Part shown: positions 765 to 47,199 of the stretch, one piece after another
Layout of the letters: every line of letters begins with the position of its first letter
How positions within the stretch are numbered: position 1 is the stretch's first letter
NCBI GenBank assembly: GCA_029263715.1
Contig: JAJUFP010000008.1
Span: 1-64,000 of the forward strand
Direction: 5' to 3'
DNA from: Nitrososphaera sp.
Lineage (GTDB): Archaea; Thermoproteota; Nitrososphaeria; Nitrososphaerales; Nitrososphaeraceae
DNA: 64,000 bases
Made by a program: the position numbers and the translations under genes
The notes under the pieces: model-generated
Database searches by the model: none
Seen by the model: only the letters and a program-made list of their open reading frames with translations
What the model was told of the DNA's origin: nothing

Positions 765-1175
765 CTAAGCCACCTCCGGAAACTGGTTTAGTGGACACCT
801 AGCGAACCACCAACCACAACGGTACACTTCATACGCACGCGTACCGTCTGCAGTCAGATAGAAGGTGTTATATTCCCGTAGGTTGTCGGCGTCGGAAACT
901 GGGTGTATCAGGTTAACGTATCTTACCCCACAACCATAGCATTCAGAAATGAACTCACTGGTTCCCGGCATAAAGTAGGGAAGATGTGTGCAATCCCTGT
1001 ATTCCTGTGGCTTCTGGGTTGTTCTGATAGTGTTAAGACGAATAAATTCTCTGTCTGTTTCATGGCATAGACAGTCGCAGCCAACCGAAGTCAGACTTGA
1101 CTTATGCCAGGTGGTGCAATGCATGTGGTCGTTTTCTGCGCATTTTTCTGATAACATTGTCAGGGCTTCGCTCAT
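765..1175 (-). CDS. Hypothetical Cys/His-rich protein
   Basis: A 136-aa protein with many Cys and His residues (CDCLCHE near residue 33, ECYGCGVRY near 79, YRCGWWFARC near the end), which suggests metal binding, probably zinc. I recognise no named family. Its ATG overlaps the stop of the 53-aa gene upstream as ATGA, and its own stop abuts the next ATG. It therefore sits inside a tightly coupled operon of the integrated element. Confidence 0.6.
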   Translation of the reverse strand: MSEALTMLSEKCAENDHMHCTTWHKSSLTSVGCDCLCHETDREFIRLNTIRTTQKPQEYRDCTHLPYFMPGTSEFISECYGCGVRYVNLIHPVSDADNLREYNTFYLTADGTRAYEVYRCGWWFARCPLNQFPEVA

Positions 1176-1333
1176 GGTGATCCCGCCTTGGTAAAGGCTT
1201 CATCAAGAAAGCGCATAGCGTCTTCATTGCCGAGCTGAGCCTCACGCCTGACCACCTGGATAAGTTTTAATCCAAAGGCGTAAGGATCTATTGGGGAGAG
1301 TTTCTGCTCACTGGTTGCTTGCGAGGCGGTCAT
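1172..1333 (-). CDS. Small (53 aa) hypothetical protein, translationally coupled
   Basis: This short gene begins at the ATG at 1333 and ends at the TGA at 1172-1174. It overlaps the upstream regulator gene and the downstream Cys-rich gene by 4 nt (ATGA) on each side. The product starts MTASQATSEQKLSPIDPYAF and is acidic and probably helical, with no family recognised. The exact ATGA overlaps on both sides are the main evidence that it is real. Confidence 0.6.
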   Translation of the reverse strand: MTASQATSEQKLSPIDPYAFGLKLIQVVRREAQLGNEDAMRFLDEAFTKAGSP

Positions 1334-1611
1334 TGGGCCGAGACCTCCCTTCCGTCCATCATGGCGATTGCACGGGTGTAAGTTTCCAAGGCCTTCAGTC
1401 CTAGTTCTGTGATAGCATACTGGCCTTCTGCAGTGATAGTTACATGGCCATGCTTGACTAGCTTCATGCAGTAATCGTCGAAGGCATAGCCAGAGATGTT
1501 GGCCAGTCTGCAGATTGTAGTCTTGATTCGAGGTCCGTCTTTTATCACTGATAAGAAAGCATAGTGAATGCGGACCTCGGAACGTTTTTCTGTTGTCATT
1601 TCTGACATCAT
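1330..1611 (-). CDS. Winged-helix DNA-binding regulator
   Basis: A 93-aa protein with the layout of small archaeal winged-helix regulators: an N-terminal helix (HYAFLSVIKDG), a helix-turn-helix around residues 30-55 (TTICRLANISGYAFDDYCMKL) and a wing (HGHVTITAEGQYAITELGL). It heads the minus-strand operon, and its promoter region holds two perfect palindromes at 1615-1665. It probably binds these sites and controls itself and the divergent gene at 1707. Start alternatives are the adjacent ATGs at the N-terminus. Confidence 0.75.
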   Translation of the reverse strand: MMSEMTTEKRSEVRIHYAFLSVIKDGPRIKTTICRLANISGYAFDDYCMKLVKHGHVTITAEGQYAITELGLKALETYTRAIAMMDGREVSAQ

Positions 1612-1614
1612 TTG

Positions 1615-1632
1615 TTACCGTAATTACGGTAA
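1615..1632. promoter_or_regulatory. Perfect 18-bp palindrome (operator candidate 1)
   Basis: TTACCGTAATTACGGTAA is identical to its reverse complement. It lies 4 nt upstream of the winged-helix start codon, in the gap between divergent genes. It shares the TACGGTAA/TTACCGTA half-sites with the palindrome at 1650-1665, and the two centres are about 34 bp apart. A dimeric regulator binding site is the natural reading. Confidence 0.8.
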
Positions 1633-1649
1633 TCTATCTATTAAAACAT

Positions 1650-1665
1650 TACGGTAATTACCGTA
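1650..1665. promoter_or_regulatory. Perfect 16-bp palindrome (operator candidate 2)
   Basis: TACGGTAATTACCGTA is a perfect palindrome with the half-sites of the 1615-1632 palindrome in swapped order. It sits next to the A/T-rich CTTTAAAAAG (about 1666-1675), the likely TATA box of the plus-strand gene at 1707. A bound repressor would block that promoter directly. Confidence 0.8.
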
Positions 1666-1706
1666 CTTTAAAAAGAGTTTAGATATAACAATGATCAGTA
1701 CAACAT

Positions 1707-2174
1707 GTGCCAAAACCAGGCTGGACAAGTATTACTTTACCGGATAAGCTTCTTGTTGAATTAAACAAAATCAAGCCGGAAAGTACACCTGATTCAACCT
1801 TTATTCAAACACTTCTTGAAAAGATATTATCTGGTAAGAAGGATCCGTCTGTAATTAATCTCAAGCCTGAATTAGTCAAATCTCTTGAAGCAATACAGGA
1901 TGAAGAGCTCAACAATTACATTGGAGAAATGGACTTTGAAAAATATGTCAATGGTCTTTTAGAAGCAGTCGTAAAAAAGTATGAGTTTAACAAGAAATAC
2001 TTTCCAGGACTTGCGATTGACGAGCTTGCAAGCAAGTCTATTTTAATCAGGGAAGGCAAAAGAAGCGTGAGGGTCAAATCAGAAGAAGGAGTACTGATTT
2101 GTGAGGCAGACAACAGTCGAGAGTGCGTTCATGTCAGGTTTGCCCTTGCGTCGGTGCGGGCGCCAAAGATTTAA
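1707..2174 (+). CDS. Hypothetical protein, ribbon-helix-helix-like N-terminus
   Basis: A 155-aa protein starting at GTG. The first 45 residues (MPKPGWTSITLPDKLLVELN) have the strand-then-helices pattern of ribbon-helix-helix DNA-binding proteins; the rest is unrecognised. It is divergent from the winged-helix operon and shares its operator region. Its 3' end overlaps the convergent recombinase gene by 4 nt. The neighbourhood suggests control of recombinase or element genes. The RHH call rests on the residue pattern only. Confidence 0.6.
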   Translation: MPKPGWTSITLPDKLLVELNKIKPESTPDSTFIQTLLEKILSGKKDPSVINLKPELVKSLEAIQDEELNNYIGEMDFEKYVNGLLEAVVKKYEFNKKYFPGLAIDELASKSILIREGKRSVRVKSEEGVLICEADNSRECVHVRFALASVRAPKI

Positions 2175-3247
2175 TACCTATTCGACATTTTTCCAGCTTT
2201 CCATTCTTTCAGCATTGCTCTAACATTCTCTATTTCGTTGACATATGTTTCCTTGTAAGCATCCCGCTCCTTTGTTACAGAGTCGAGCTTTACCTTTAGC
2301 CTGTTTTCCTCGTTGATAGTCAAAGCATCTACACCCTGCAGGTATGCTTGCAGCAGGTCTTCCATGGACGGCTTGTAGTACGAGCCTTTCAGGCCGATGT
2401 TGTGACCTAGCAGGATCTCTGTCAAGAGCGGGTTCTTTGTTGCCTTTGTCAGGTTAGTATCAAAGAACTTTCTAAACCCGTGGGCCATCATTATGTCATG
2501 GCGCTTGTGCTTCATACTTTCAGTTGGGCGCTGCCGAAGCCCACTGTCCTGTAGCAATATAAAAAGCAGGTGCTGTAGTCCTTCAAGCGATAACGTCTTT
2601 GCATACGCTGACTTGATAGGGTCATCCTTGTCGAATTGGTCCCTTATGAGTGGCGATTCAGGCCTGAGTTTTTCTCCATAGTTCCGCCGGTATTCCAGAT
2701 ATGAATCGATGGCCTGCGCACATTCCGGCGTGCAAAAAGTAATGTATTCTTCTTTTGTATTTTCATAGACAATAAACCGATAGATGTTATAATCATCCAG
2801 TTTTTTCAGATGTTTTAATCTCAATGCAGGAAGAGCGCCACGACGAATACCCGTTGAGGCCAGAGTCAATATGATAACCCGTTTACGCTCATCACACTTG
2901 TCAAGGATCTTTTTTATTTCTTGATGTGTGTACGGCCTGTCCTTGACGGTCCGTTCCGGCTCCGGTAGGAAGCGCTTCATCTTCTGCCAGTTCAAAGTGA
3001 TATCGTTTATCTCGAAAAGATGTTTCAAGGCACAATATTCGATGTAAACTGTCTGGTATGATACTTCTTCTTTACGCACTGTTATGTGCTTGATTATCAG
3101 CTCTGTTGCCACCTTTTGATCCAGGGCTATGATATCTTCCATTTTTGAAAAACTATATCTTTTCATGAAGCCCTTTATCATTTTGAGATATGTTTGTTTG
3201 GTATGTTTGCTCTTCAGTGACTCGGTGTAAAGAAGCAGTGCTTCCAT
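2171..3247 (-). CDS. Tyrosine recombinase / integrase (XerA-like)
   Basis: A 358-aa site-specific tyrosine recombinase that would cut and rejoin DNA through a covalent 3'-phosphotyrosine. Visible motifs are an N-terminal SAM-like core-binding region (about 1-95), the first catalytic Arg in STGIRRGAL (about 150), HGFRKFF (the HxxR pair, about 254), LLGHNIGLKGSYYKP (GH followed by the Tyr nucleophile, about 280-292), and a C-terminal coiled coil. The archaeal length and domain order fit. It probably integrated the element of which genes 1-2174 are part. No att repeat or tRNA is visible beside it. Confidence 0.9.
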   Translation of the reverse strand: MEALLLYTESLKSKHTKQTYLKMIKGFMKRYSFSKMEDIIALDQKVATELIIKHITVRKEEVSYQTVYIEYCALKHLFEINDITLNWQKMKRFLPEPERTVKDRPYTHQEIKKILDKCDERKRVIILTLASTGIRRGALPALRLKHLKKLDDYNIYRFIVYENTKEEYITFCTPECAQAIDSYLEYRRNYGEKLRPESPLIRDQFDKDDPIKSAYAKTLSLEGLQHLLFILLQDSGLRQRPTESMKHKRHDIMMAHGFRKFFDTNLTKATKNPLLTEILLGHNIGLKGSYYKPSMEDLLQAYLQGVDALTINEENRLKVKLDSVTKERDAYKETYVNEIENVRAMLKEWKAGKMSNRY

Positions 3248-3276
3248 GGCATTGTATGCTTTAGATGGTTATTTAA

Positions 3277-3804
3277 CTATAGGATATGGGAAGGGTAATA
3301 TGTCTTATTGTTTGTGGTGTTGTCTCTTCCAAGTTCCTTCAAAAGTTCGGCGAGACGATCCCAGCTTTCGCTTGCCCCTGCCTCCATCCCAGAATTGAGC
3401 ATACCGTCGCGATCCTCGACCGTCTGGAAGAGAGCTACGACCCGCAGCTTCGTCCTGCCTTCCTGTTCTTCAAACATTGCTGTTTCGACCGATACATGAC
3501 CCGACATGCCTTCAAATTCAAAGGTGCGGACAATCCGCCGGGGTGGCACGATCTCGCGATAAACGCCATTGAACGCGTACTCGTTGCCCTCCGAATCGCG
3601 CGAGATGTATCTCCAAGTGCCGCCTGGCCTCAATTCATCCTTATCAATAGTGGTCGTATAGCGTTTTGGTCCCCACCATTGCGGTATGAGATCTGGATCC
3701 GTGCATGCCTCGAACACCCGCTTGGGCGGAGCATCAAAGACACGCTCCATGACGATCTCCTTGTCTGACGGAAACGTAAACTGTGTGGTGTTCATTGAGT
3801 TCAT
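3277..3804 (-). CDS. SRPBCC/AHSA1 (Aha1-like) domain protein
   Basis: A 175-aa START-fold protein. It shows the AHSA1 signature: an N-terminal strand then VFDAPPKRVFEACTDPDLI, WWGPKRYTTT, and a C-terminal helix SGMEAGASESWDRLAELLKEL. These proteins bind small hydrophobic ligands, and the exact role is unknown. It begins 5 nt after the DUF1428-like gene, so the two form an operon. The family is common in bacteria, so transfer is possible. A later ATG at 3795 is an alternative start. Confidence 0.85.
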   Translation of the reverse strand: MNSMNTTQFTFPSDKEIVMERVFDAPPKRVFEACTDPDLIPQWWGPKRYTTTIDKDELRPGGTWRYISRDSEGNEYAFNGVYREIVPPRRIVRTFEFEGMSGHVSVETAMFEEQEGRTKLRVVALFQTVEDRDGMLNSGMEAGASESWDRLAELLKELGRDNTTNNKTYYPSHIL

Positions 3805-3809
3805 GCCGC

Positions 3810-4205
3810 CTACTGCCCGAGGCGGTTGAACCCGCCTGTGATAAGGTTCTTTCCTTGCGTGACTAGACCAAAGAACTCCTTCCCAAGCGGTTCAAGACTT
3901 TTGTCTTGCATCATCTTTGCGTAGACGTCTTTACAGTGCGTGCTGTCTCTAAAGTATTGCAGTTCTATCCAGATATCCTCGTCTTCGGCTGCGGAGAGCG
4001 TCTTGGCAATGCTCTGCATGCCTTCCATGGTCTGGCTATCGCCAAACTGGTAGTACTCAATTCTTACCCCGTGTTTTTCGAACCATGGCACGAATTGCTT
4101 CAGGTTCCGTGCAATGGCGTCATGGTTCTTTTTCGGTACCCGGTAAAGAAAGACTTCAAGGTGACTTCCAGTCTCTATTTCCTTAGAAGACTCGGTTTCG
4201 CTCAT
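3810..4205 (-). CDS. DUF1428-like protein (YbaA-type)
   Basis: The 131-aa product from ATG 4205 matches the DUF1428 pattern: VFLYRVPKKNHDAIARNLKQF, a central region, then FRDSTHCKDVYAKMMQDKSL. These are small ferredoxin-fold-like proteins of unknown function. The frame extends to 4277, but the ATG at 4205 is preceded by GAGGAACT and by a TATA-like TTTTATATTA about 20 nt further up, and it fits the family N-terminus better. It is first in an operon with the AHSA1 gene. Confidence 0.7.
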   Translation of the reverse strand: MSETESSKEIETGSHLEVFLYRVPKKNHDAIARNLKQFVPWFEKHGVRIEYYQFGDSQTMEGMQSIAKTLSAAEDEDIWIELQYFRDSTHCKDVYAKMMQDKSLEPLGKEFFGLVTQGKNLITGGFNRLGQ

Positions 4206-4241
4206 AGTTCCTCTACCAACAATAATATAAAATCTATTCCG

Positions 4242-4254
4242 CCCCAAGGGGAGG
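4242..4254. promoter_or_regulatory. CCCCAAGGGGAGG motif, copy 1
   Basis: A GC-rich 13-mer with inverted CCCC/GGGG arms around AA, upstream of the TATA-like box of the DUF1428-AHSA1 operon. The same 13-mer recurs at 6019-6031 before the winged-helix/MEDS operon. Identical placement next to A/T-rich promoter elements suggests a shared regulator site. Confidence 0.6.
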
Positions 4255-4384
4255 TCTCTTAGCAATTGGCCGGCCATCCAGTCGTACCTATAGCTTTGGG
4301 TGACAGATCAAGCTCGCCGAAAGATTATTCTGACTTTTGTTCAGGGTTTATGTTCTGCGCCAGCGGGCAAAGTCGACAAGCGAA

Positions 4385-5884
4385 TCAGACATGTCCGTCA
4401 CTCCCTGGCTCACGTGGGTTCCAAGTTGTTGTCGCAGACATCAATTTTTTCCTTGATACAAAAACTGCCATGGCGACGGATGCAATTGATACCAGCGACG
4501 CAACAATGAATATCCAGTTGTAGGCATTTTCTGTTGGAAATAAGCCTTCAAATCCCGGTGCGGTCCCTTGATATGCCTCTTGAAATATTCCGGCCAGAGC
4601 CGGACCCACCGACATCCCGACTAGGTTGAGAAGTAGCGTCATTCCGAGGGCAATCCCTGTTACTTGCATCGGCAAGGAAATCAGTATTACGTTGAATGCG
4701 CCAGTAATGGTAAGCGATAGACCCGCGGCAAGTATCGTCAACCCAATTGAAACCATTTCAGTGGTCGAATGGAACATGAGCAGAACAAAAAATCCAATGG
4801 CGGCAATTACAGTGCCAATTAGTGACAGCTTTGTGTTCTTAACTCTATTCAGTATAAATCCTGACATAACTGACCCGATCAGCAACACAACCATGAAGGG
4901 CAGCTGGACGGCTGCAACAGCAACATGGTCTCCCCCGAAGCCTAGCGGCGGCGGGCTCCTTACCATTACAGGGATAGTAAGGTATACCATAAAAATTGAC
5001 ATGAACGTCAACATAAGAATCATGGTTGGGGGAAGGAAGCTTCTGCTGGTCATCAACTTGAAGTCAAGTAGAGGCGACTTTACTCTCTTTTCAATCACGA
5101 TAAATGCTGCAAGCGATATTCCCGAAGCAACAAAGAGTCCTGCAGCCCGATAGTCTGTGCCTGCGCCGCCACCTTCCAGAAAGGTGAGCCCGGCGAGAAA
5201 CGAAATGATGGTAGCTGCGAGGGCCATGGTTCCCTTCATGTCAATTCTACGGCCATCCTGCACACTGCTACCGTCTGCGGCGTTTTCGCCTGCTATCGCT
5301 GCTGGAGTTCCGACGCGGATGAACTTCACTATTATCAGCCAGAGCACTATTGCAACAGGGAGTATTGCCAAGAATGTTGCCTGCCAACCAAAGTTTTGGA
5401 TTATGGCTGCGCCACCTACCAAGCCGACAACGGCCCCACCAGGAAATGTGGAGCTAAAAATCGTCTGACCAAGAGCCAGTTTTTTCTCAGGGAGCACTTC
5501 TCTGATAATCCCAAAAGCAATAGGGAACATCGCCATTCCAACACCCTGAAGCGCTCTCGCCGCAAGCATGAATTCGATATTGGTTGCAAATCGTCCTGCC
5601 AAGACTCCTACTATGTAGACGGCCATTACTATGAGCAGTATCCTTTTCTTACCATAGATGTCGGATAGCCTTCCCCCAATTGGCGTCATGACGGCCGCTG
5701 CAATTATGTAAGCCGAAAGCAGCCATGACGAAGTGCTGTACGAGATGTTGAAATCGCGAATGAAATCCGGTATCGCAGGCAGTATCATTGTCTCATCGAA
5801 AAGAACAATCAGGCCGAGACAGCTCAGGATGATGAGTGTTGCCCATCCTGAGCGATTCATATCTTGTTTCTCTACACTAACCAT
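4385..5884 (-). CDS. MFS drug:H+ antiporter, 14-TM DHA2 family
   Basis: A 499-aa integral membrane transporter. It has the motif A-like loop GGRLSDIYGKKR after TM2, the motif D-like FDETMILPAIPDF in TM1, the motif C-type GPALAGIFQEA late in the protein, and about 14 hydrophobic segments as in EmrB/QacA exporters. It probably expels toxic compounds by proton antiport. The neighbouring winged-helix and MEDS genes are on the opposite strand and may form its regulatory unit. The substrate cannot be inferred. Confidence 0.9.
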   Translation of the reverse strand: MVSVEKQDMNRSGWATLIILSCLGLIVLFDETMILPAIPDFIRDFNISYSTSSWLLSAYIIAAAVMTPIGGRLSDIYGKKRILLIVMAVYIVGVLAGRFATNIEFMLAARALQGVGMAMFPIAFGIIREVLPEKKLALGQTIFSSTFPGGAVVGLVGGAAIIQNFGWQATFLAILPVAIVLWLIIVKFIRVGTPAAIAGENAADGSSVQDGRRIDMKGTMALAATIISFLAGLTFLEGGGAGTDYRAAGLFVASGISLAAFIVIEKRVKSPLLDFKLMTSRSFLPPTMILMLTFMSIFMVYLTIPVMVRSPPPLGFGGDHVAVAAVQLPFMVVLLIGSVMSGFILNRVKNTKLSLIGTVIAAIGFFVLLMFHSTTEMVSIGLTILAAGLSLTITGAFNVILISLPMQVTGIALGMTLLLNLVGMSVGPALAGIFQEAYQGTAPGFEGLFPTENAYNWIFIVASLVSIASVAMAVFVSRKKLMSATTTWNPREPGSDGHV

Positions 5885-6016
5885 TTTGTTGACAACCCAT
5901 TTTGAATCTGCCCTTTGATCCCACGTTCTTGTTGGATTGCTGCTTTCTCCTGGTCCGATTGCCTAGGTCCGGTTTCATTCAGTGTCCTCTTTTCGTCAAT
6001 GAAATAAAAGGCATTA

Positions 6017-6031
6017 CTCCCCAAGGGGAGG
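6017..6031. promoter_or_regulatory. CCCCAAGGGGAGG motif, copy 2 (inverted repeat CTCCCC-AA-GGGGAG)
   Basis: This copy has 6-bp inverted arms CTCCCC/GGGGAG around AA and is followed by the TATA-like CTTATTAATTAG, about 28 nt before the winged-helix start at 6063. It repeats the 13-mer at 4242-4254. It is a good candidate operator for the adjacent regulator. Confidence 0.6.
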
Positions 6032-6062
6032 CTTATTAATTAGAAAGGGTCATTGATGATAC

Positions 6063-6356
6063 TTGCCCAAGCCGAAGCGGAACAAGATGGAGATATACAA
6101 CGATATCCTCAGCGCAATCAAGGTGGAATTGACAAACGGCGAGGCAAAACCTACCAGAGTGCAGTCCCTCAGCAACCTTGCTTATGATAAACTTGTCAGA
6201 TATCTAAATGAATTAGAAAGCAAGAAAATGATCGCGCAAAATCCGCTTCGAATAACCGAGAAGGGACACGATTTTCTGCAGGACTATGATCGGATCAGGG
6301 ACTTCGTCACCGCAATGGGCGTAAAGTATTTCGATACTCCGGGGAGAGATTTATGA
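6063..6356 (+). CDS. Winged-helix DNA-binding protein
   Basis: A 97-aa archaeal winged-helix regulator: basic N-terminus (MPKPKRNKMEIYNDILSAI), recognition region LSNLAYDKLVRYLNELESKKM, wing NPLRITEKGHDFLQDYD. The TTG at 6063 places the start about 28 nt after a TATA-like element; an internal ATG at 6087 is an alternative. The stop overlaps the ATG of the MEDS gene (ATGA), so the two are co-translated. It may bind the inverted repeat in its own promoter. Confidence 0.8.
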   Translation: MPKPKRNKMEIYNDILSAIKVELTNGEAKPTRVQSLSNLAYDKLVRYLNELESKKMIAQNPLRITEKGHDFLQDYDRIRDFVTAMGVKYFDTPGRDL

Positions 6357-6955
6357 GTCCTGAAAATTACCGGCCAACAAAGTTCCTTGACCAGATGGAA
6401 GGGAATAGCCACATAGTCCTACTATACGACGATCAAAAATATGCTGATTTGATTATAGCCCGGTATCTTTTGAATGGCCTGAATAAAGGAGAGTCTTGCA
6501 TTTTCTTTACTTCTGACGATCCTAAAACAATTGAAAAAAGATTATCTGCCTACGGTATTGATGTCGATTCGTACAAGCGGGCAAACTCTTTACGCATCTT
6601 TCGCATTGAAAAGTCCGATGCAAATAAGCGGGACGCACTTGGCACCCTCAAAAGCATAAGAGAAGAGGCCACTAGAGGCATGAAACCGCCCTACAGATTT
6701 ATCGGCAGGACGATAACGGACACGGAAACGACAGAGGGAATGAAACTGGGACTGGTGGTGGAAAGAACAGGTCATGAACATTTTGAGAGCTTTGACTGTA
6801 CACAGATGTGCTATTATGATATCTCCGCAATAGAGCAAACGAGGAGGGATGAGTGGATCAGTGAGCTTTTGAAAAACCATCACCACGTAATTTATGCATC
6901 AGAACCTGACAAGGCTGTGGCGTTTGAAACCATGTTGCTAGAAGATGAAGAGTAA
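6353..6955 (+). CDS. MEDS-domain sensor protein
   Basis: A 200-aa protein made of one MEDS (methanogen/methylotroph DcmR sensory) domain. The RecA-like core is visible as NSHIVLLYDDQKYADLIIARYLLNGL, GESCIFFTSDD and ISELLKNHHHVIYASEP. The family is thought to sense small molecules, including hydrocarbon derivatives, and is common near archaeal regulators. It is coupled by ATGA to the winged-helix gene and may feed a ligand signal to it and, by inference, to the divergent MFS exporter. Confidence 0.8.
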   Translation: MSPENYRPTKFLDQMEGNSHIVLLYDDQKYADLIIARYLLNGLNKGESCIFFTSDDPKTIEKRLSAYGIDVDSYKRANSLRIFRIEKSDANKRDALGTLKSIREEATRGMKPPYRFIGRTITDTETTEGMKLGLVVERTGHEHFESFDCTQMCYYDISAIEQTRRDEWISELLKNHHHVIYASEPDKAVAFETMLLEDEE

Positions 6956-7481
6956 AGGTATATTGAAACGGATGGGTAGGTGAGGCCCGGGGCCTGCATC
7001 GGGAATCTAGAACAAGAGACTGGCCACATAGATGGACTCGACGATCGTCAGCAAATGCAAAAAAATCCGGGATAGATCTCCTCGGACAGCTGATGGGATT
7101 CAAACGATTATGGATGAAAAGCAAGTCGCAATGAACTAAACAATGTTTCTGAACTGCGGCAACTTGACAGGAAATGGTCCGCCCAGGAGTGGCCGCAGGA
7201 GGTACAAGACTTTACACGAAAACAAATCTGACAACAACGGTTATCATCTAGTAGTTAACGTCCTGACTGTCCTAGAGAGGGGCAGGTCGCAATACTAAGC
7301 AATGATGCGCCTAGCTCTACACTCTGTTACAGGTTGTGATGATATTTCGGGACCCTTAAGATTGGACACGCATAATGATCTTGTTTCTCACTTTTCACCA
7401 GACGGCCACAAAATACCTATTTTTGCCATCCCTTTCCTCCGTTCCGCAATTGTTGGCACAGCGATATGCGATCTATAATTA
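6956..7481. other. 526-bp stretch without a recognisable gene
   Basis: Only short frames are present; the longest starts at ATG 7305 and gives 57 aa with no family signal. There is no convincing promoter plus ORF and no tRNA-like fold that I can see. Short coding-like fragments around 7000-7230 suggest a decayed gene. Confidence 0.4.
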
Positions 7482-40907: not shown

Positions 40908-41744
40908 CTACTTTGTTCTGGCAGTGGCTATCAGCACGTCCCAGGGGAAGATTATCACTCCGTTATTTGTAAAATGCCTTGCAGATTCCCGGGCCCGCTC
41001 CTTGATCTCAAGGACAGTTTTTTCGCCGGCGGCTTGTATCTTGGAGCGTATGGAGGCAGCGGTGGTGGACAGGTAGTCAGACCAGTACTGCTCGAAGGTT
41101 CCGGCATCGTAGCTGTAGACAAACTTTTCAACGCTGACGTCTGCAAAGCCAGTGGATTCTATCACGTCCTTCAGGCTGGCCGGCTCGCCAAACCTGTGGA
41201 CCGTGGGCGCTCCTTCCGGCCGTATGTCCGGAAGCCGCTGCAGGACCGGCTCCATTATCGTGCTAAAGTAGGGAACACCCCTAGCAGTGCCATGGACGGC
41301 TACTGCCAGCACGCCATCCTCTTTGAGCAGCGTTCTTAAGTTGCCCAGAACCCTGGCAGGATCTGGAAAGAACATCAAGGCATACTGGCAGAGAATCCTG
41401 TCGAATCGGCCGTGCAGGCCGACGTTTTCTGCATCCATCTCAACAAAGTTGCCTGCTGGCACGGCAGACCTGGCAATCCTCAACGCCCCACGTGAAAAAT
41501 CAACGCCCACAATCAGTCCAGAAGAGCCAAGGATGCTGGCCACCTGCATGGATACTGCACCGGTTCCGCATCCAACGTCAAGGACAGAATCCCCCCTTAC
41601 CACCTGAGCTGATTTTACCAGCTGCGCGGTTGACCTAAAGGGCCCCCTTCCTGCGCCAGCCCAGCCGTTGTGGTATTCCGGGGCGACCAGGTTCCAGTTA
41701 TCCCTAGAACTCCACTTGTACTTGACAGGGTCATAAGCAGCCAA
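40908..41744 (-). CDS. Class I SAM-dependent methyltransferase
   Basis: A 278-aa methyltransferase. Motif I is VLDVGCGTGAVSMQ, motif II ends in VGVDFSRGAL, and motif IV-like region is FDRILCQYALMFFPDPARV. It resembles UbiE/COQ5-type small-molecule methyltransferases. It lies 130 bp from, and divergent to, the terpene-like pair; a role in modifying their product is conceivable but not shown. Confidence 0.88.
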   Translation of the reverse strand: MAAYDPVKYKWSSRDNWNLVAPEYHNGWAGAGRGPFRSTAQLVKSAQVVRGDSVLDVGCGTGAVSMQVASILGSSGLIVGVDFSRGALRIARSAVPAGNFVEMDAENVGLHGRFDRILCQYALMFFPDPARVLGNLRTLLKEDGVLAVAVHGTARGVPYFSTIMEPVLQRLPDIRPEGAPTVHRFGEPASLKDVIESTGFADVSVEKFVYSYDAGTFEQYWSDYLSTTAASIRSKIQAAGEKTVLEIKERARESARHFTNNGVIIFPWDVLIATARTK

Positions 41745-41893
41745 GGAACGTCACAAGGTATTGATCTTGTCGTTATATGTTGTATTTGCAAGTACACTTT
41801 GACCATTGGGCCCCTGCGAGGCAAAAAGATCAGAATCACGGATAATTTACAAGAATGCATATTAACTTAGGTTAGTTGGTTGTATTTTGTCTG

Positions 41894-42859
41894 TTGGAAA
41901 TCGACAGCAGTTTAAAAGAGCGAATCCTGTCCAGCATGGACAAGGCAGCGTCATTTATGATTCAAGGTTTGGAAGACAGGAAATTGTTGCTTACTGAAAC
42001 CTCGCCAAAAATTGCTTTTGGTGATGATCCATCTTACGTTTCATCTGTCTACATTCCAAGCTACATAGCACACAGTTTAGGCTTTGTAAAAACAACTGGA
42101 AGTATTTCTACAGCAATATCAGAGATCATGGGTTACCTGAAAAGCCAGATGGAGACTGACGGGACCTGGCGGTTCTTCGGAAAACAGGATGAATTTCCAC
42201 CGCCGGATTTTGATGACACGTGCTGTGCCCTGGTAGCATTGAAAGAAAATAACATCGAGGTCAAGACCGACGTGTGGAGCCTGTTGTCAAAGTTTAGAGG
42301 AGAATCTGGTTTGTACTACACATGGATTGATGAGTGGATGAACAAAGAGAGTTCGTATCATGTCGACGGTGTCGTAAATACCAATATCCTTTACTTTGCC
42401 GCGGTTTTCAAAAGGAAGCTGCCGGAGATTATCAAATTCATAGACCTTTACTCCCGCGTAAAGGAATTCTATCGTTTTAGCATCTATTCTGTTTCGGAAT
42501 ATTCGTCCATCTACCTTATTTCAAGAGCATACGGAGACGGCGAAATAACCGAGCTTGACCGTGCAATGCTCCACATCACGTATTATTTGATCGAACATCA
42601 ACGATCTGATGGCAGTTGGGGAAACCCCTTTGAAACGATCTTGGCCCTGGCCTCTTTGGCAAACGCCGGATATGCAGGCAATCAAATTGTCAGATCAATT
42701 GAATATTTACTAAAGAGCCAACAACCTTCTGGCGGGTTTCCTTCCCATGCCTTCTTTAAAGATTTCACGCCTGTCTATTACGGGTCACCTTATCTGACAA
42801 CGGCGATATTTTTGGAGGCCATGTCCAAAATGTTGAAACCGAAACAAAAGACACTGTAG
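41894..42859 (+). CDS. Class II terpene-cyclase-like (prenyltransferase/squalene-oxidase repeat) protein
   Basis: A protein of about 321 aa with alpha/alpha-barrel repeats of the Prenyltrans family. QW-like repeats are QMETDGTWRFFGK, HQRSDGSWGNPF and SQQPSGGFPSHAF. The key segment PPPDFDDTCCALVAL contains DxDDT, the general-acid motif of class II cyclases such as squalene-hopene cyclase. It is half the usual length (one barrel). TTG 41894 lies about 30 nt after a TATA-like ATATTAAC; TTG 41876 is the longer option. It is 4 nt before the class I-like gene. Confidence 0.75.
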   Translation: MEIDSSLKERILSSMDKAASFMIQGLEDRKLLLTETSPKIAFGDDPSYVSSVYIPSYIAHSLGFVKTTGSISTAISEIMGYLKSQMETDGTWRFFGKQDEFPPPDFDDTCCALVALKENNIEVKTDVWSLLSKFRGESGLYYTWIDEWMNKESSYHVDGVVNTNILYFAAVFKRKLPEIIKFIDLYSRVKEFYRFSIYSVSEYSSIYLISRAYGDGEITELDRAMLHITYYLIEHQRSDGSWGNPFETILALASLANAGYAGNQIVRSIEYLLKSQQPSGGFPSHAFFKDFTPVYYGSPYLTTAIFLEAMSKMLKPKQKTL

Positions 42860-42863
42860 GAGA

Positions 42864-43958
42864 ATGAATGCCGTGTCTAAAGATGTCAAGCAAGAAGACT
42901 TCAGCCAAGCAGTTCAGGCCCAGGTACACAAGATAATGCATGATTTCAATCTCAGAATTGAACCAAAAGAATGGAAACTTGAGATGGAACGGCAGAAACA
43001 GGAACTATCAGAAAAATGGAATCTGGTGTATCAGGAAATTCCTAGCAGCATAAGAGAAGAACTGCCTTCACATTACCTGGAGAAATTTCCAAGGCTGTTT
43101 AGCTTTGGTTATTCACTAGGTTACCAAATAAGCGAGATTCTTGGTGGCAGGAGCAGTGAAAATCACGAGGCTGGCGTCGCCTCTGCTCTTTTCAACCTGT
43201 ATGCTTCCCTATTTGATGAAATTTGCGACAATTACCCCCACCTGGTTTCCAGATTGACTGAAATAGTGAACGTTGAATCTCTTGCAAAAGTCATTGATGC
43301 CGGCGAAAAATTAGACACGTGTGTTCCTCTGACCGTTTCTGACCGAGACGACATTTTGCTCAAGACAGTTTGTCTGATTATGAATCAGTATTTTGCAAAG
43401 TGTCGAATTCAGAAATCGATAAACAGCAGAACGTATGAAGACTTCCAGAACCTGATTCTCGATATTTACAAGATGGAATTGCAGAGCCTGCGATGCACGT
43501 TTGCTTCGGGCACGAATTCTGCGGATATCTACCGGATACTTTTTACCAAGAGCGCCCTCCCCTCTTGGGCAATCTTTCTAACTTCTTTTATGTGCCTAAA
43601 ACGGGAACCCACGTGTAATTTAGTTGAATTAAAAAATGCCATAGTTGGCCTTGGAAAAGCGATATGGATTGTCGATGACCTGTCAGACATCTTTGAAGAC
43701 CTTGATAGAAACAGGTGGAGCTACGTCTGGCTAAAGCTTCACTTGGAGCATCGCGTTCCGCTGTTGCACAATGACGGCAAAGTGAGGAATAAAACAGAAC
43801 TGTGCGAAGATCTGCTGGCAACAAGTGTGGTAAGCGACTCGACTGCGGAGATGTGTAAAAGTCTTGTTGATTCCTTTGCGTTGCTACGTCGCCATGGATA
43901 CGATGTAGCAAAGTTTGAACGGAATATCATCGTCTGGATAAACAGCTGGATTGGCTAG
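42864..43958 (+). CDS. Class I isoprenoid-synthase-like protein
   Basis: A 364-aa all-helical protein. Two Asp-rich segments match the class I terpenoid synthase layout: LYASLFDEICDNYP (DExxD, about 110) and IVDDLSDIFEDLDRNRW (DDxxD, about 272), each able to bind Mg-diphosphate. It differs from ordinary polyprenyl synthases, and the first motif is atypical. It is coupled to the DFDDT protein, so the pair could ionise and cyclise a prenyl diphosphate. Product unknown. Confidence 0.65.
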   Translation: MNAVSKDVKQEDFSQAVQAQVHKIMHDFNLRIEPKEWKLEMERQKQELSEKWNLVYQEIPSSIREELPSHYLEKFPRLFSFGYSLGYQISEILGGRSSENHEAGVASALFNLYASLFDEICDNYPHLVSRLTEIVNVESLAKVIDAGEKLDTCVPLTVSDRDDILLKTVCLIMNQYFAKCRIQKSINSRTYEDFQNLILDIYKMELQSLRCTFASGTNSADIYRILFTKSALPSWAIFLTSFMCLKREPTCNLVELKNAIVGLGKAIWIVDDLSDIFEDLDRNRWSYVWLKLHLEHRVPLLHNDGKVRNKTELCEDLLATSVVSDSTAEMCKSLVDSFALLRRHGYDVAKFERNIIVWINSWIG

Positions 43959-44102
43959 TTACCATTAGTCTGTGTAACATTTGAAAACAATCCCACAAAC
44001 AAAGAAAATTTTAACTAATGAGACTTCAATACATAGATTCTATACAAGTTGCCTATTCGTTTATAGAAAGTGTTAAATTCTAGCCTTCTTATTTAGAGGA
44101 AG

Positions 44103-44342
44103 TTGCCTACCACTACACCCAACATAGAAGTATGCTGTCAGTATATTTGTCCTGTAAGCGGAACCGTCCATAAAGCAATGCAATCGTCCTCTACTGGTCA
44201 AATTCCAAATACCATTCCGGATCCTCAGGATTCAACACAATTCTGTGAGTTCGTCAGTTTTACAACTATGGAAAAATGCACTGGTACTGGCGGTGGAGGT
44301 AGTGGTGGCGGTAGCGGCGGTGGCCGCCGCGGCGGATGGTAG
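44103..44342 (+). CDS. 79-aa Cys-rich peptide with Gly-rich tail
   Basis: The product starts at TTG and reads MPTTTPNIEVCCQYICPVSG near the N-terminus, has two further Cys (TQFCEF, MEKCTG), and ends in a Gly/Ser run with RRGGW. TTAAATTC about 30 nt upstream is a suitable promoter. It is 145 nt after the class I-like gene on the same strand. The short size, five Cys and Gly tail recall a secreted or modified peptide, but no signal peptide or known leader is seen. Confidence 0.6.
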   Translation: MPTTTPNIEVCCQYICPVSGTVHKAMQSSSTGQIPNTIPDPQDSTQFCEFVSFTTMEKCTGTGGGGSGGGSGGGRRGGW

Positions 44343-45640: not shown

Positions 45641-46573
45641 CTACTCTTTGAATTTCTTGATGAGTGTCTTTAGGTATCCGGTGAATTCTCTTACAAACCT
45701 GTAAAATTCCCTTTCATCAAGCTCGGCCAATAGCAGACCTTTTTCCGTTCCCCATTCGAAAATATTGTCTTGTTCAAGAAGCCTTCTCTTTGCATTCAAG
45801 TTAGTCCTGTATTTTGCGTAGAGCCGGAGTGCATGATCTGTCTTTTTGATAATACATTTTTCTACATCTTGCGGTTTGATGTCTATCTTCTTGGAAATGA
45901 AAAATATGTCGATGAAATCCCTGGCTTTTACACCCTCCCTTGTAAGCAGTGCCCTTACCTTCTCGCTCAGAACCTCGCTTGCGTCATACATTGCAAAAGG
46001 TATGGCATTGGAGTATTATCGGTATTCCGCTGGAAACAGGAAAGCGAGTTCCTCATGCCTGCCTTTAAGGAGGCTCCTCAGTTCTCCATTCCTTGGTTCT
46101 GCGCACATCTCTTCTACAAAATTTATCTGTACCTTGAAGAAAGTCTTCTTCCGCAAAACCTCAGAATAATACCATACCTTGAACGTGCAGGTCTTGCTGC
46201 TGCCGCCCAGCTCCACATAATTCTTGTTACCCTTTGCGCACTTGAAATCAAGCCCCCTCTTTGTGGCAATACTCTCGAAGGTCTTTCCTGCTTCGTCGAT
46301 AAGGGTGGATAGGTCAGAGCGGATTTTACCGGCCGTCTTCCCTTCAAACCGTGACTGGTCTTTCCATGTAAAGTCCATGTCTTCAGAGAACCTAAAGTAC
46401 CCTAGGTAGTGCTTTATCAGGCAAGTGCCGCCCTTGAAGAGCATGTTATTTGCAAAGGACCGGTCCATGGATAGGTCCGTCAGGACTTGGTGGAGCAGGA
46501 TGTCTTTCTCTACCATGTCCCTCCTCCTGATCCCTAGCTCTGAAGATAGCCTGTCCACAAAAGCCAGGCTCAT
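45641..46573 (-). pseudogene. abiEii: AbiEii nucleotidyltransferase toxin, split by an in-frame TAA
   Basis: From ATG 46573 the product has the nucleotidyltransferase core MLFKGGTCLIKHYLGYFRFS then EDMDFTW. TAA at 46016-46018 stops it at 185 aa; the same frame continues with NAIPFAMYDASEVLSEKVRA and LLTREGVKARDFIDIFFISK, the known C-terminal half, to 45641. One base change restores a protein of about 310 aa. The gene overlaps abiEi by ATGA. It may be dead, or made as two chains (46016-46573 and 45641-45991). Confidence 0.8.
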
Positions 46574-47199
46574 CTGATCATCATCTCTGCAATAGCTGCC
46601 ACTGTCTTTGGGTATTTCTTTGCATATTTGCGGAGCTTGTCTTTAGACAGGTTTGTAGTCCATGACGACAAGTCGGCAACAATCTTGTCCGCCGGGACGC
46701 CCTTCTGTCTGGCAAGGTAGACAAAGTCAAGGATGGTCTTCTCCGGGTCGGAATACCTGAGCATCCTTTCTTCCTCTATGCCAAAGCTTACCAGTGACGG
46801 CGAGAGCTTTACGAACCTGAACTTGTACCCTGCAATATCAAAAGGGTTTGCCCTGAATAACGAGTCGCTCACTACCTCTTCTATGGCAAAGTGCTCGTAA
46901 GTCATGTTGTTGAGCTTGAGCGCAGAGTGCAGGCCGAAGTACCAGTTCTTCACGCCCTTCAGCTCAAGGCCCTTTGCTACGAGCTCAAGGTGGTTGTACT
47001 TGCTCCTTCCCAGTTTTAGTTCCTCAAGTGACCTGACGTAGAATATCCCCCGGAAGATCCTGACGAGGTACCTTCTTGAAGCTAGGTAACGTATGACCAG
47101 AGTATAGTCCATCTTCATGGATCTGCAGTATTGTTTAAGCTCCTCAGACTTTACGAACTCTTTGTTTTCCATCCACAACCTCTCTACCAGTAAGCTCAT
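46570..47199 (-). CDS. abiEi: AbiEi antitoxin / transcriptional regulator
   Basis: A 209-aa type IV antitoxin. The N-terminal winged helix (about 10-60: VKSEELKQYCRSMKMDYTLV then RGIFYVRS) binds operator repeats, and the C-terminal region (VKNWYFGLHSALKLNNMTYE, then SDPEKTILDFVYLARQKG) matches AbiEi. In known systems it represses the operon and counters AbiEii. The operator-like repeats at 47210-47282 lie just upstream. The gene looks intact. Confidence 0.85.
   Translation of the reverse strand: MSLLVERLWMENKEFVKSEELKQYCRSMKMDYTLVIRYLASRRYLVRIFRGIFYVRSLEELKLGRSKYNHLELVAKGLELKGVKNWYFGLHSALKLNNMTYEHFAIEEVVSDSLFRANPFDIAGYKFRFVKLSPSLVSFGIEEERMLRYSDPEKTILDFVYLARQKGVPADKIVADLSSWTTNLSKDKLRKYAKKYPKTVAAIAEMMIR

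Follow-up and report, generated by a model that had tools for sequence, protein, structure and literature searches.

A candidate two-gene terpenoid module in an archaeon, pairing a monodomain class II terpene cyclase with a putative class I-fold partner

Described class II cyclases and the archaeal locus

Monodomain class II terpene cyclases are a known kind of enzyme, and we report here on a gene of this type, open reading frame 1 (ORF1), and the gene that follows it, ORF2, in the archaeon Nitrososphaera sp. (assembly GCA_029263715.1); both lie within the first 64,000 nucleotides (nt) of contig JAJUFP010000008.1 (C5 below), the whole stretch of DNA analysed, referred to as the window. The closest described systems are the HAD-TC-beta drimenol synthases (AsDMS and the fungal AstC and AacA), which like ORF1 have a single-barrel class II domain with a catalytic DxD, Asn and Tyr network; AsDMS is the best match of ORF1 by both profile and fold. 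ORF1 differs from these enzymes in being free-standing, with no HAD phosphatase domain, in having an ORF2-type neighbour, in carrying DxDD where they have DxDT(T), and in a Ser that takes the place of their phosphate-anchoring Arg/Lys. Merosterolic acid synthase (MstE) of Scytonema is itself a free-standing single-domain class II cyclase and is like ORF1 in length and fold (structures 6sbb-6sbg), the two sharing 14-16% identity over structural alignments. Its reported substrate is a prenylated dihydroxybenzoate, geranylgeranyl dihydroxybenzoate (GG-DHB) (PMC9401909), and the available portion of the source mentions no class I-type partner, unlike the arrangement found for ORF1.

Single barrels that share the motif set of ORF1 also occur in cyanobacteria and acidobacteria (loci L005, L006, L007, L008, L023 and L024), where the partner is a membrane UbiA prenyltransferase and not a protein of the ORF2 type, and in three of the UbiA-linked loci the same chain carries PhyH and TPR domains, unlike the free-standing ORF1. 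If ORF1 and ORF2 work together, protonation and the handling of the diphosphate end would be divided over two polypeptides, as in actinobacterial systems with separate class II and class I diterpene synthases such as Rv3377c/Rv3378c, of which only Rv3377c is among the listed fold matches of ORF1. The class II enzyme of those systems has two domains, beta and gamma, whereas ORF1 has the beta domain only and its host is archaeal. Prenyl diphosphate synthases (PF00348) share with ORF2 a probable fold and the register of two Asp motifs, but ORF2 lacks their condensing-enzyme signatures and has no PF00348 match.

Two adjacent terpene-enzyme-like genes are present in this archaeon, as the initial annotation, made from the sequence alone, had stated: they lie 4 nt apart on the forward strand of C5, in a genome of 1.92 Mb, and they carry the motifs named there (Table 1). 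The start of ORF1 could be TTG at 41876, used here, TTG at 41894, six codons downstream and the earlier choice, or ATG at 41936. We consider it probable that the pair forms a two-enzyme terpenoid module in which ORF1 is a class II cyclase and ORF2 a class I-fold enzyme acting at the diphosphate end; the earlier interpretation along these lines is partly supported. What is new is the pairing, the archaeal host and the unrecognised class I-type family that ORF2 would represent. To our knowledge, archaea offer few documented cases of cyclic terpenoids whose synthesis depends on class II and class I enzymes dedicated to it. No report of an ORF1-ORF2 pair was found in the literature on archaeal terpene synthases, a search whose coverage excluded most subscription papers; a preprint that, from its title, reportedly deals with archaeal terpenoid biosynthesis may overlap with the present pair.

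Fold and catalytic residues of ORF1

The assignment of ORF1 as a monodomain class II terpene cyclase is well supported. Its AlphaFold2 model (predicted local distance difference test score, pLDDT, 78.3; predicted template modelling score, pTM, 0.84) shows, as do the fold matches, a single alpha-alpha barrel. Foldseek comparison of this model with the PDB returned AsDMS at E 5.6e-11 (template modelling score, TM, 0.73 by query) and MstE at 3e-9, and 74 PDB matches reach E 0.001. Ranks 1-20 are occupied by AsDMS, MstE or 8pak/8paj, and within the best 50 matches ranks 1-37 are all terpene cyclases, the first other toroid appearing at rank 38. A profile of ORF1 and its relatives searched against PDB sequences placed drimenol synthase 9mhs first (E 5.8e-17 with five sequences in the profile, 3.4e-20 with seven). 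Squalene-hopene cyclase, AstC and 8pak/8paj came next, and MstE stood lower in the list (0.0016). These matches and the conserved residues described below uphold the earlier view of the DFDDT protein as a class II-like single barrel.

In Pfam and NCBIfam ORF1 gave weak squalene-hopene cyclase matches, all under the curated cut-offs (18.8 against 26.1 bits for PF13243, 19.3 against 431.1 for TIGR01507 and 32.5 against 322.7 for TIGR01787), and assignment as a squalene-hopene cyclase was rejected on these scores for the full-length families. ORF1 as a HAD-TC-beta drimenol synthase was also rejected, as the protein has 327 amino acids (aa), one barrel and no HAD match, and the diphosphate-anchoring Arg/Lys is replaced by S160.

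The residues expected of a protonation-initiated cyclase are present in ORF1. D111, D113, N170 and Y204 are invariant in 7/7 aligned sequences (ORF1 and six relatives); their counterparts in AsDMS and AstC are given in Table 1, where the AsDMS numbering of the published work equals that of chain 9mhs plus 10, as derived by hand. In AsDMS, D331, D333 and Y427 are reported to be each required for activity, with D333 as the catalytic acid and Y427 hydrogen-bonded to the catalytic Asp (PMC12365925), and in AstC N324 is described as orienting the catalytic Asp, the N324A and Y361F exchanges each abolishing activity (PMC13244436). The aromatic pocket of AsDMS (F281, F318, Y319 and F518) corresponds to Y59, F100, F101 and Y302 of ORF1, read by hand from the alignments. 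In the features of sequence and fold that were tested ORF1 agrees with a monodomain class II cyclase, and its conserved residues suggest that it would initiate cyclisation by protonation.

Motifs, fold and relatives of ORF2

ORF2 gave no NCBIfam match, and the two matches it has in Pfam are weak (E above 0.05) and unrelated. It has a paralogue of 351 aa in the same genome (C5:100687-101742, 22% identity), in which the two Asp-rich segments read DDVCD and DDIVD. With patterns that were chosen after the motifs had been seen, ORF1 is the one frame with D.DD[TS] among the 82 six-frame open frames on the contig that have at least 200 aa, and ORF2 and its paralogue are the two with D[DE]xxD motifs 130-170 residues apart among 49 that have 250-600 aa; such a motif pair arose in 10/5000 shuffles of ORF2 and 7/5000 of the paralogue. 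The motifs of ORF1 and ORF2 exceed chance.

When the alignment of ORF2 with its paralogue was compared by hhalign with 28 archaeal prenyl synthases, 171 columns were aligned and the two Asp motifs fell into register, at E 0.011 for this single comparison. The synthases were drawn from the same genome and its relatives and are the first 28 of 30 loci listed (35 matches in 16 genomes), the partial L056 and L057 being unused. The score of 26.76 was reached by none of 200 column-shuffled alignments, of which the highest gave 24.87, and reversal of the alignment gave 16.41. In Foldseek, prenyl and terpene enzymes make up 49 of the best 50 matches to the low-confidence ORF2 model (169 matches at E up to 10), and a geranylgeranyl diphosphate (GGPP) synthase, 1wmw, ranks first (E 0.028, probability 1.00, TM 0.40 by query). 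On these comparisons of sequence and model ORF2 likely has a class I fold, less firmly backed than the class II identity of ORF1.

Several results pull the other way. The structure model of ORF2 is poor (mean pLDDT 49.3, pTM 0.49), none of its Foldseek matches reaches E 0.001 and the TM-scores are low; a profile of ORF2 and the paralogue found nothing significant among PDB sequences (best E 0.6); and the hhalign probability for the two together was merely 3.9. When 47 open frames, including both proteins, were run singly through hhalign, ORF2 (about 23.0) and the paralogue (23.6) scored below the best unrelated frame (24.39). The register of the Asp motifs therefore rests on the pair: taken alone ORF2 aligns over the first motif and the paralogue over the second, and the pair alignment alone exceeds the unrelated control. 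The earlier description of ORF2 as an all-helical, class I-like protein is supported by the motif register and the fold matches, more weakly than that of ORF1. The placement of ORF2 draws on a low-confidence model and a two-member family, and the pair is known from one genome.

ORF2 also differs from ordinary prenyl synthases. GGKR, HDDxxD and a [RK][RHNK]G motif within 30 residues after the first Asp motif are all absent from ORF2 and the paralogue and are present in 22/28, 26/28 and 24/28 of the archaeal synthases respectively, and two ordinary prenyl synthases are encoded elsewhere in the genome. The earlier remark that neither protein of the pair looks like a standard lipid or quinone prenyl synthase agrees with this. 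ORF2 as a UbiA prenyltransferase was rejected too, as it appears soluble and has no polytopic membrane character (no hydrophobic 19-residue segments, against 6-9 in six UbiA sequences).

The paralogue starts 3 nt 3' of a tyrosinase gene (PF00264, 1.8e-43; stretch C5:99718-101742) and has a GC (guanine plus cytosine) content of 0.462, compared with 0.561 for the tyrosinase gene. It is possible that the two belong to a prenylated-phenol or terpenoid branch. Tyrosinase matches were found in 8/200 genomes of the class, the present one included; a conserved tyrosinase-ORF2 unit was considered and rejected, as short stretches around the tyrosinases of the class held no ORF2-like neighbour. Relatives of ORF2 were confined to its own genome among 300 genomes of the class and 349 of the phylum. 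None was found in 247 genomes of the phylum of the acidobacterial metagenome-assembled genome (MAG) described below or in 386 of the cyanobacterial phylum, in searches run without a positive control, nor in viral contigs (searched with ORF2 and with the pair alignment) or plasmids (with ORF2 and with the paralogue), and genome contigs, searched with ORF2 alone, matched just its own genome. Relatives may exist elsewhere.

Bacterial relatives, order of reactions and genomic setting

Relatives of ORF1 were found in bacteria. Only its own genome matched among 200 genomes of the class, and viral contigs gave no relative; genome contigs yielded three loci (two in cyanobacteria and one in an acidobacterial MAG) and plasmids one Nostoc record. 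Among 244 genomes of the cyanobacterial phylum 12 had a match; the ORF1 type is represented by three copies in G300, the gene of L006 being one of them, by G418 and by a G447 fragment. The other nine gave weak matches to open frames of 528-678 aa, which were assumed to be ordinary squalene-hopene cyclases and dropped from the tally. The six intact loci, 24-28% identical to ORF1, are all accompanied by a UbiA prenyltransferase (6/6, in five genomes or records), which is fused to the cyclase in L005, L007 and L024, adjacent in L006 and L023, and about 1.6 kb away on the opposite strand in L008. Pfam UbiA scored above its cut-off in L005, L007, L008, L023 and L024; the L006 neighbour had no Pfam UbiA match at 0.001, but shares 50% identity with the L007 UbiA domain. 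The G447 match (L025) has an internal stop and was not counted as intact; a blastp search of its 19.9 kb for UbiA was negative (best E 6.4). The UbiA loci of the archaeal genome itself gave nothing at E 1e-3 against the linked bacterial UbiA subfamily (best E 0.003, 22% identity).

Three of the bacterial loci (L005:7871-11527, L007:7679-11563 and L024:7519-12114) encode very large cyanobacterial chains in which PhyH, UbiA and TPR repeats are fused with a class II cyclase domain like ORF1, an apparent meroterpenoid-type system. Genes annotated as sulfotransferase and ABC transporter are found close to L005, and similar ones close to L006, as read from its open reading frames. In L023:1079-4260 (G300:C300) two ORF1-like genes flank one UbiA gene, one with DxDD and the other with DxDTT, the drimenol synthase variant.

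We propose that D113 of ORF1, with N170 and Y204 holding it in place and D111 as its pair, would protonate a C15-C20 isoprenoid chain at its far end and so drive ring closure, and that ORF2, as a soluble class I-fold enzyme, would bind Mg2+ through its two Asp clusters and act on the diphosphate end. The fold and residues of ORF1, the motif register of ORF2 and the tight gene spacing were computed; the substrate, the order of steps, the use of metal and the joint action of the two proteins are what we infer from them. Two orders are conceivable: the labdane-like one fits the likeness of ORF1 to AsDMS and AstC, and the meroterpenoid one fits the UbiA neighbours and S160.

One explanation, which we hold as a tentative possibility, is that ORF1 turns farnesyl diphosphate (FPP), GGPP or geranylfarnesyl diphosphate into a cyclic diphosphate, which ORF2 would then ionise on its release to give a hydrocarbon or alcohol, as separate actinobacterial class II and class I enzymes do. 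The D-x3-D-x3-D spacing in ORF2 presumably resembles an NSE/DTE triad, and the missing condensing-enzyme signatures agree with such a role, as does the reported use of FPP by AsDMS and AstC, the closest solved relatives of ORF1 (PMC12365925; PMC13244436). However, ORF1 has S160 at the phosphate-anchoring position (R378 in AsDMS, K314 in AstC), with K157 near by; three of the six other aligned sequences have Lys at the position of S160, and an anchoring Arg/Lys is thus not conserved. The bacterial relatives, moreover, are partnered by UbiA.

Another possibility, which we rate slightly lower, is that ORF2 is a soluble prenyltransferase for an aromatic or other acceptor. It would take the role that UbiA has in the bacteria and couple the chain to that acceptor, after which ORF1 would cyclise the prenylated product in the manner of MstE. 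Since the bacterial relatives sit with UbiA in 6/6 loci and ORF1 has S160 in place of the diphosphate-anchoring Lys/Arg, this route is about as plausible as action on GGPP in the way of a fused diterpene synthase, which the initial annotation had raised, and it would be in keeping with MstE as a close structural match and with the position of the ORF2 paralogue behind a tyrosinase, a phenol oxidase family. Against it, no acceptor-making gene was recognised beside the pair, ORF1 is nearer to AsDMS, an FPP user, than to MstE, and no relative of ORF2 has a tested activity.

It is improbable, by our reckoning, that the two genes are unrelated neighbours, or that ORF1 is inactive or a non-terpenoid alpha-alpha toroid. 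The pair is known from a single genome among those searched, the paralogue of ORF2 sits behind a different gene, and Pfam also matches ORF1 weakly to TED and pectate lyase toroids; but the protonation network of ORF1 is complete, terpene cyclases precede every toroid of other function among its structural matches, and the genes share close spacing and a similar GC content. Least probable is that ORF2 is merely a prenyl diphosphate synthase supplying chain length for ORF1: its two DDxxD-like motifs are in register with the archaeal enzymes, but a chain-making role is unlikely on sequence grounds, given the missing signatures and the ordinary synthases already in the genome.

The two-enzyme module thus remains our preferred explanation, and the weighing has to include its occurrence in one genome only among those searched, the UbiA partners of the bacterial relatives, and the negative result that no ORF2-like gene was found near those relatives, either in the stretches compared or in three genomes and one plasmid record searched whole, the latter without a positive control. 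The gene-neighbour survey that had been suggested at the outset accordingly found the pair once and, for the bacterial relatives of ORF1, UbiA.

We would go further only with reserve. ORF2 and its paralogue could be a new family of class I terpene enzymes, found so far in one archaeon, and the pair an archaeal pathway to cyclic terpenoids in which a portable class II cyclase has acquired a new type of partner. On this speculative reading the cyclase would be partnered by HAD in marine bacteria and fungi, by UbiA in cyanobacteria and acidobacteria, and by a soluble class I enzyme here, and the tyrosinase-linked paralogue might serve a second terpenoid or prenylated-phenol branch. If true, the locus would provide a compact two-gene system that can be directly expressed and assayed, would add a class I-type family missed by standard profiles, and would point to the small class II barrel as a module whose diphosphate-handling partner varies from lineage to lineage.

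The module was probably acquired horizontally, because no match was found in the other genomes of the class (299 for ORF2, 199 for ORF1) and the GC content is below the median: 0.433 for ORF1 and 0.437 for ORF2, against a window median of 0.5225 over 48 non-overlapping open frames. The low GC content is weak evidence of transfer and suggestive only, since 7 of the 48 window frames lie below ORF2. The assignment of the contig to an archaeon looks sound, as uL16 and a tRNA-intron endonuclease match archaeal-type models: uL16 matches the archaeal/eukaryotic TIGR00279 at 2.8e-47, though under its cut-off, and NF003239 over the cut-off, and endA scores above its model cut-off.

A methyltransferase gene is adjacent to ORF1 and divergent from it, as the initial annotation had noted. 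It is probably unrelated to the pathway, because its GC content (0.559) is host-like, compared with 0.433 for ORF1; a role as pathway partner is possible but less likely, and its similarity to the methyltransferases near two bacterial ORF1 relatives is generic only.

Table 1. Features of the locus, with positions in the window
Feature	Position	Strand	Remarks
ORF1, monodomain (single-barrel, TC-beta type) class II terpene cyclase	41876..42859	+	327 aa, from TTG
PDFDDT motif, ORF1 residues 110-115	42203..42220	+	D111 and D113 correspond to AsDMS D331 and D333
N170 of ORF1	42383..42385	+	putative counterpart of AstC N324, from spacing, without direct alignment
Y204 of ORF1	42485..42487	+	counterpart of AsDMS Y427, by alignment
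ORF2, predicted all-helical, soluble, class I isoprenoid-synthase-like protein	42864..43958	+	364 aa; family without Pfam/NCBIfam model
FDEICD, first Asp-rich segment, ORF2 residues 117-122	43212..43229	+	first DDxxD position by hhalign; FDDVCD in paralogue
DDLSDIFED, second Asp-rich segment, ORF2 residues 271-279	43674..43700	+	hhalign register; DDIVDVVKD in paralogue; D-x3-D-x3-D spacing
Methyltransferase	40908-41744	-	Pfam match; divergent from ORF1, 131 nt away

Further features were seen along the contig. Soon 3' of ORF2 the window has a short open frame whose C-terminal part is rich in Gly (44097-44339, +). An AbiEi/AbiEii-like toxin-antitoxin pair lies at 45641-47199 (-), with open reading frames at 46570-47199 and 46016-46573; the AbiEii-like match extends over the beginning of its models only, and the next open reading frame (45641-45991) may be the remainder in another frame. 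Just past the window end (C5:64001-83000, positions 1162-6824 of that stretch) are type I-B CRISPR-Cas genes for Cas7b, Cas5b, Cas3, Cas4 and Cas1, followed from about position 7154 of the same stretch by an array with 39 copies of a 30-nt repeat at a spacing of about 66 nt.

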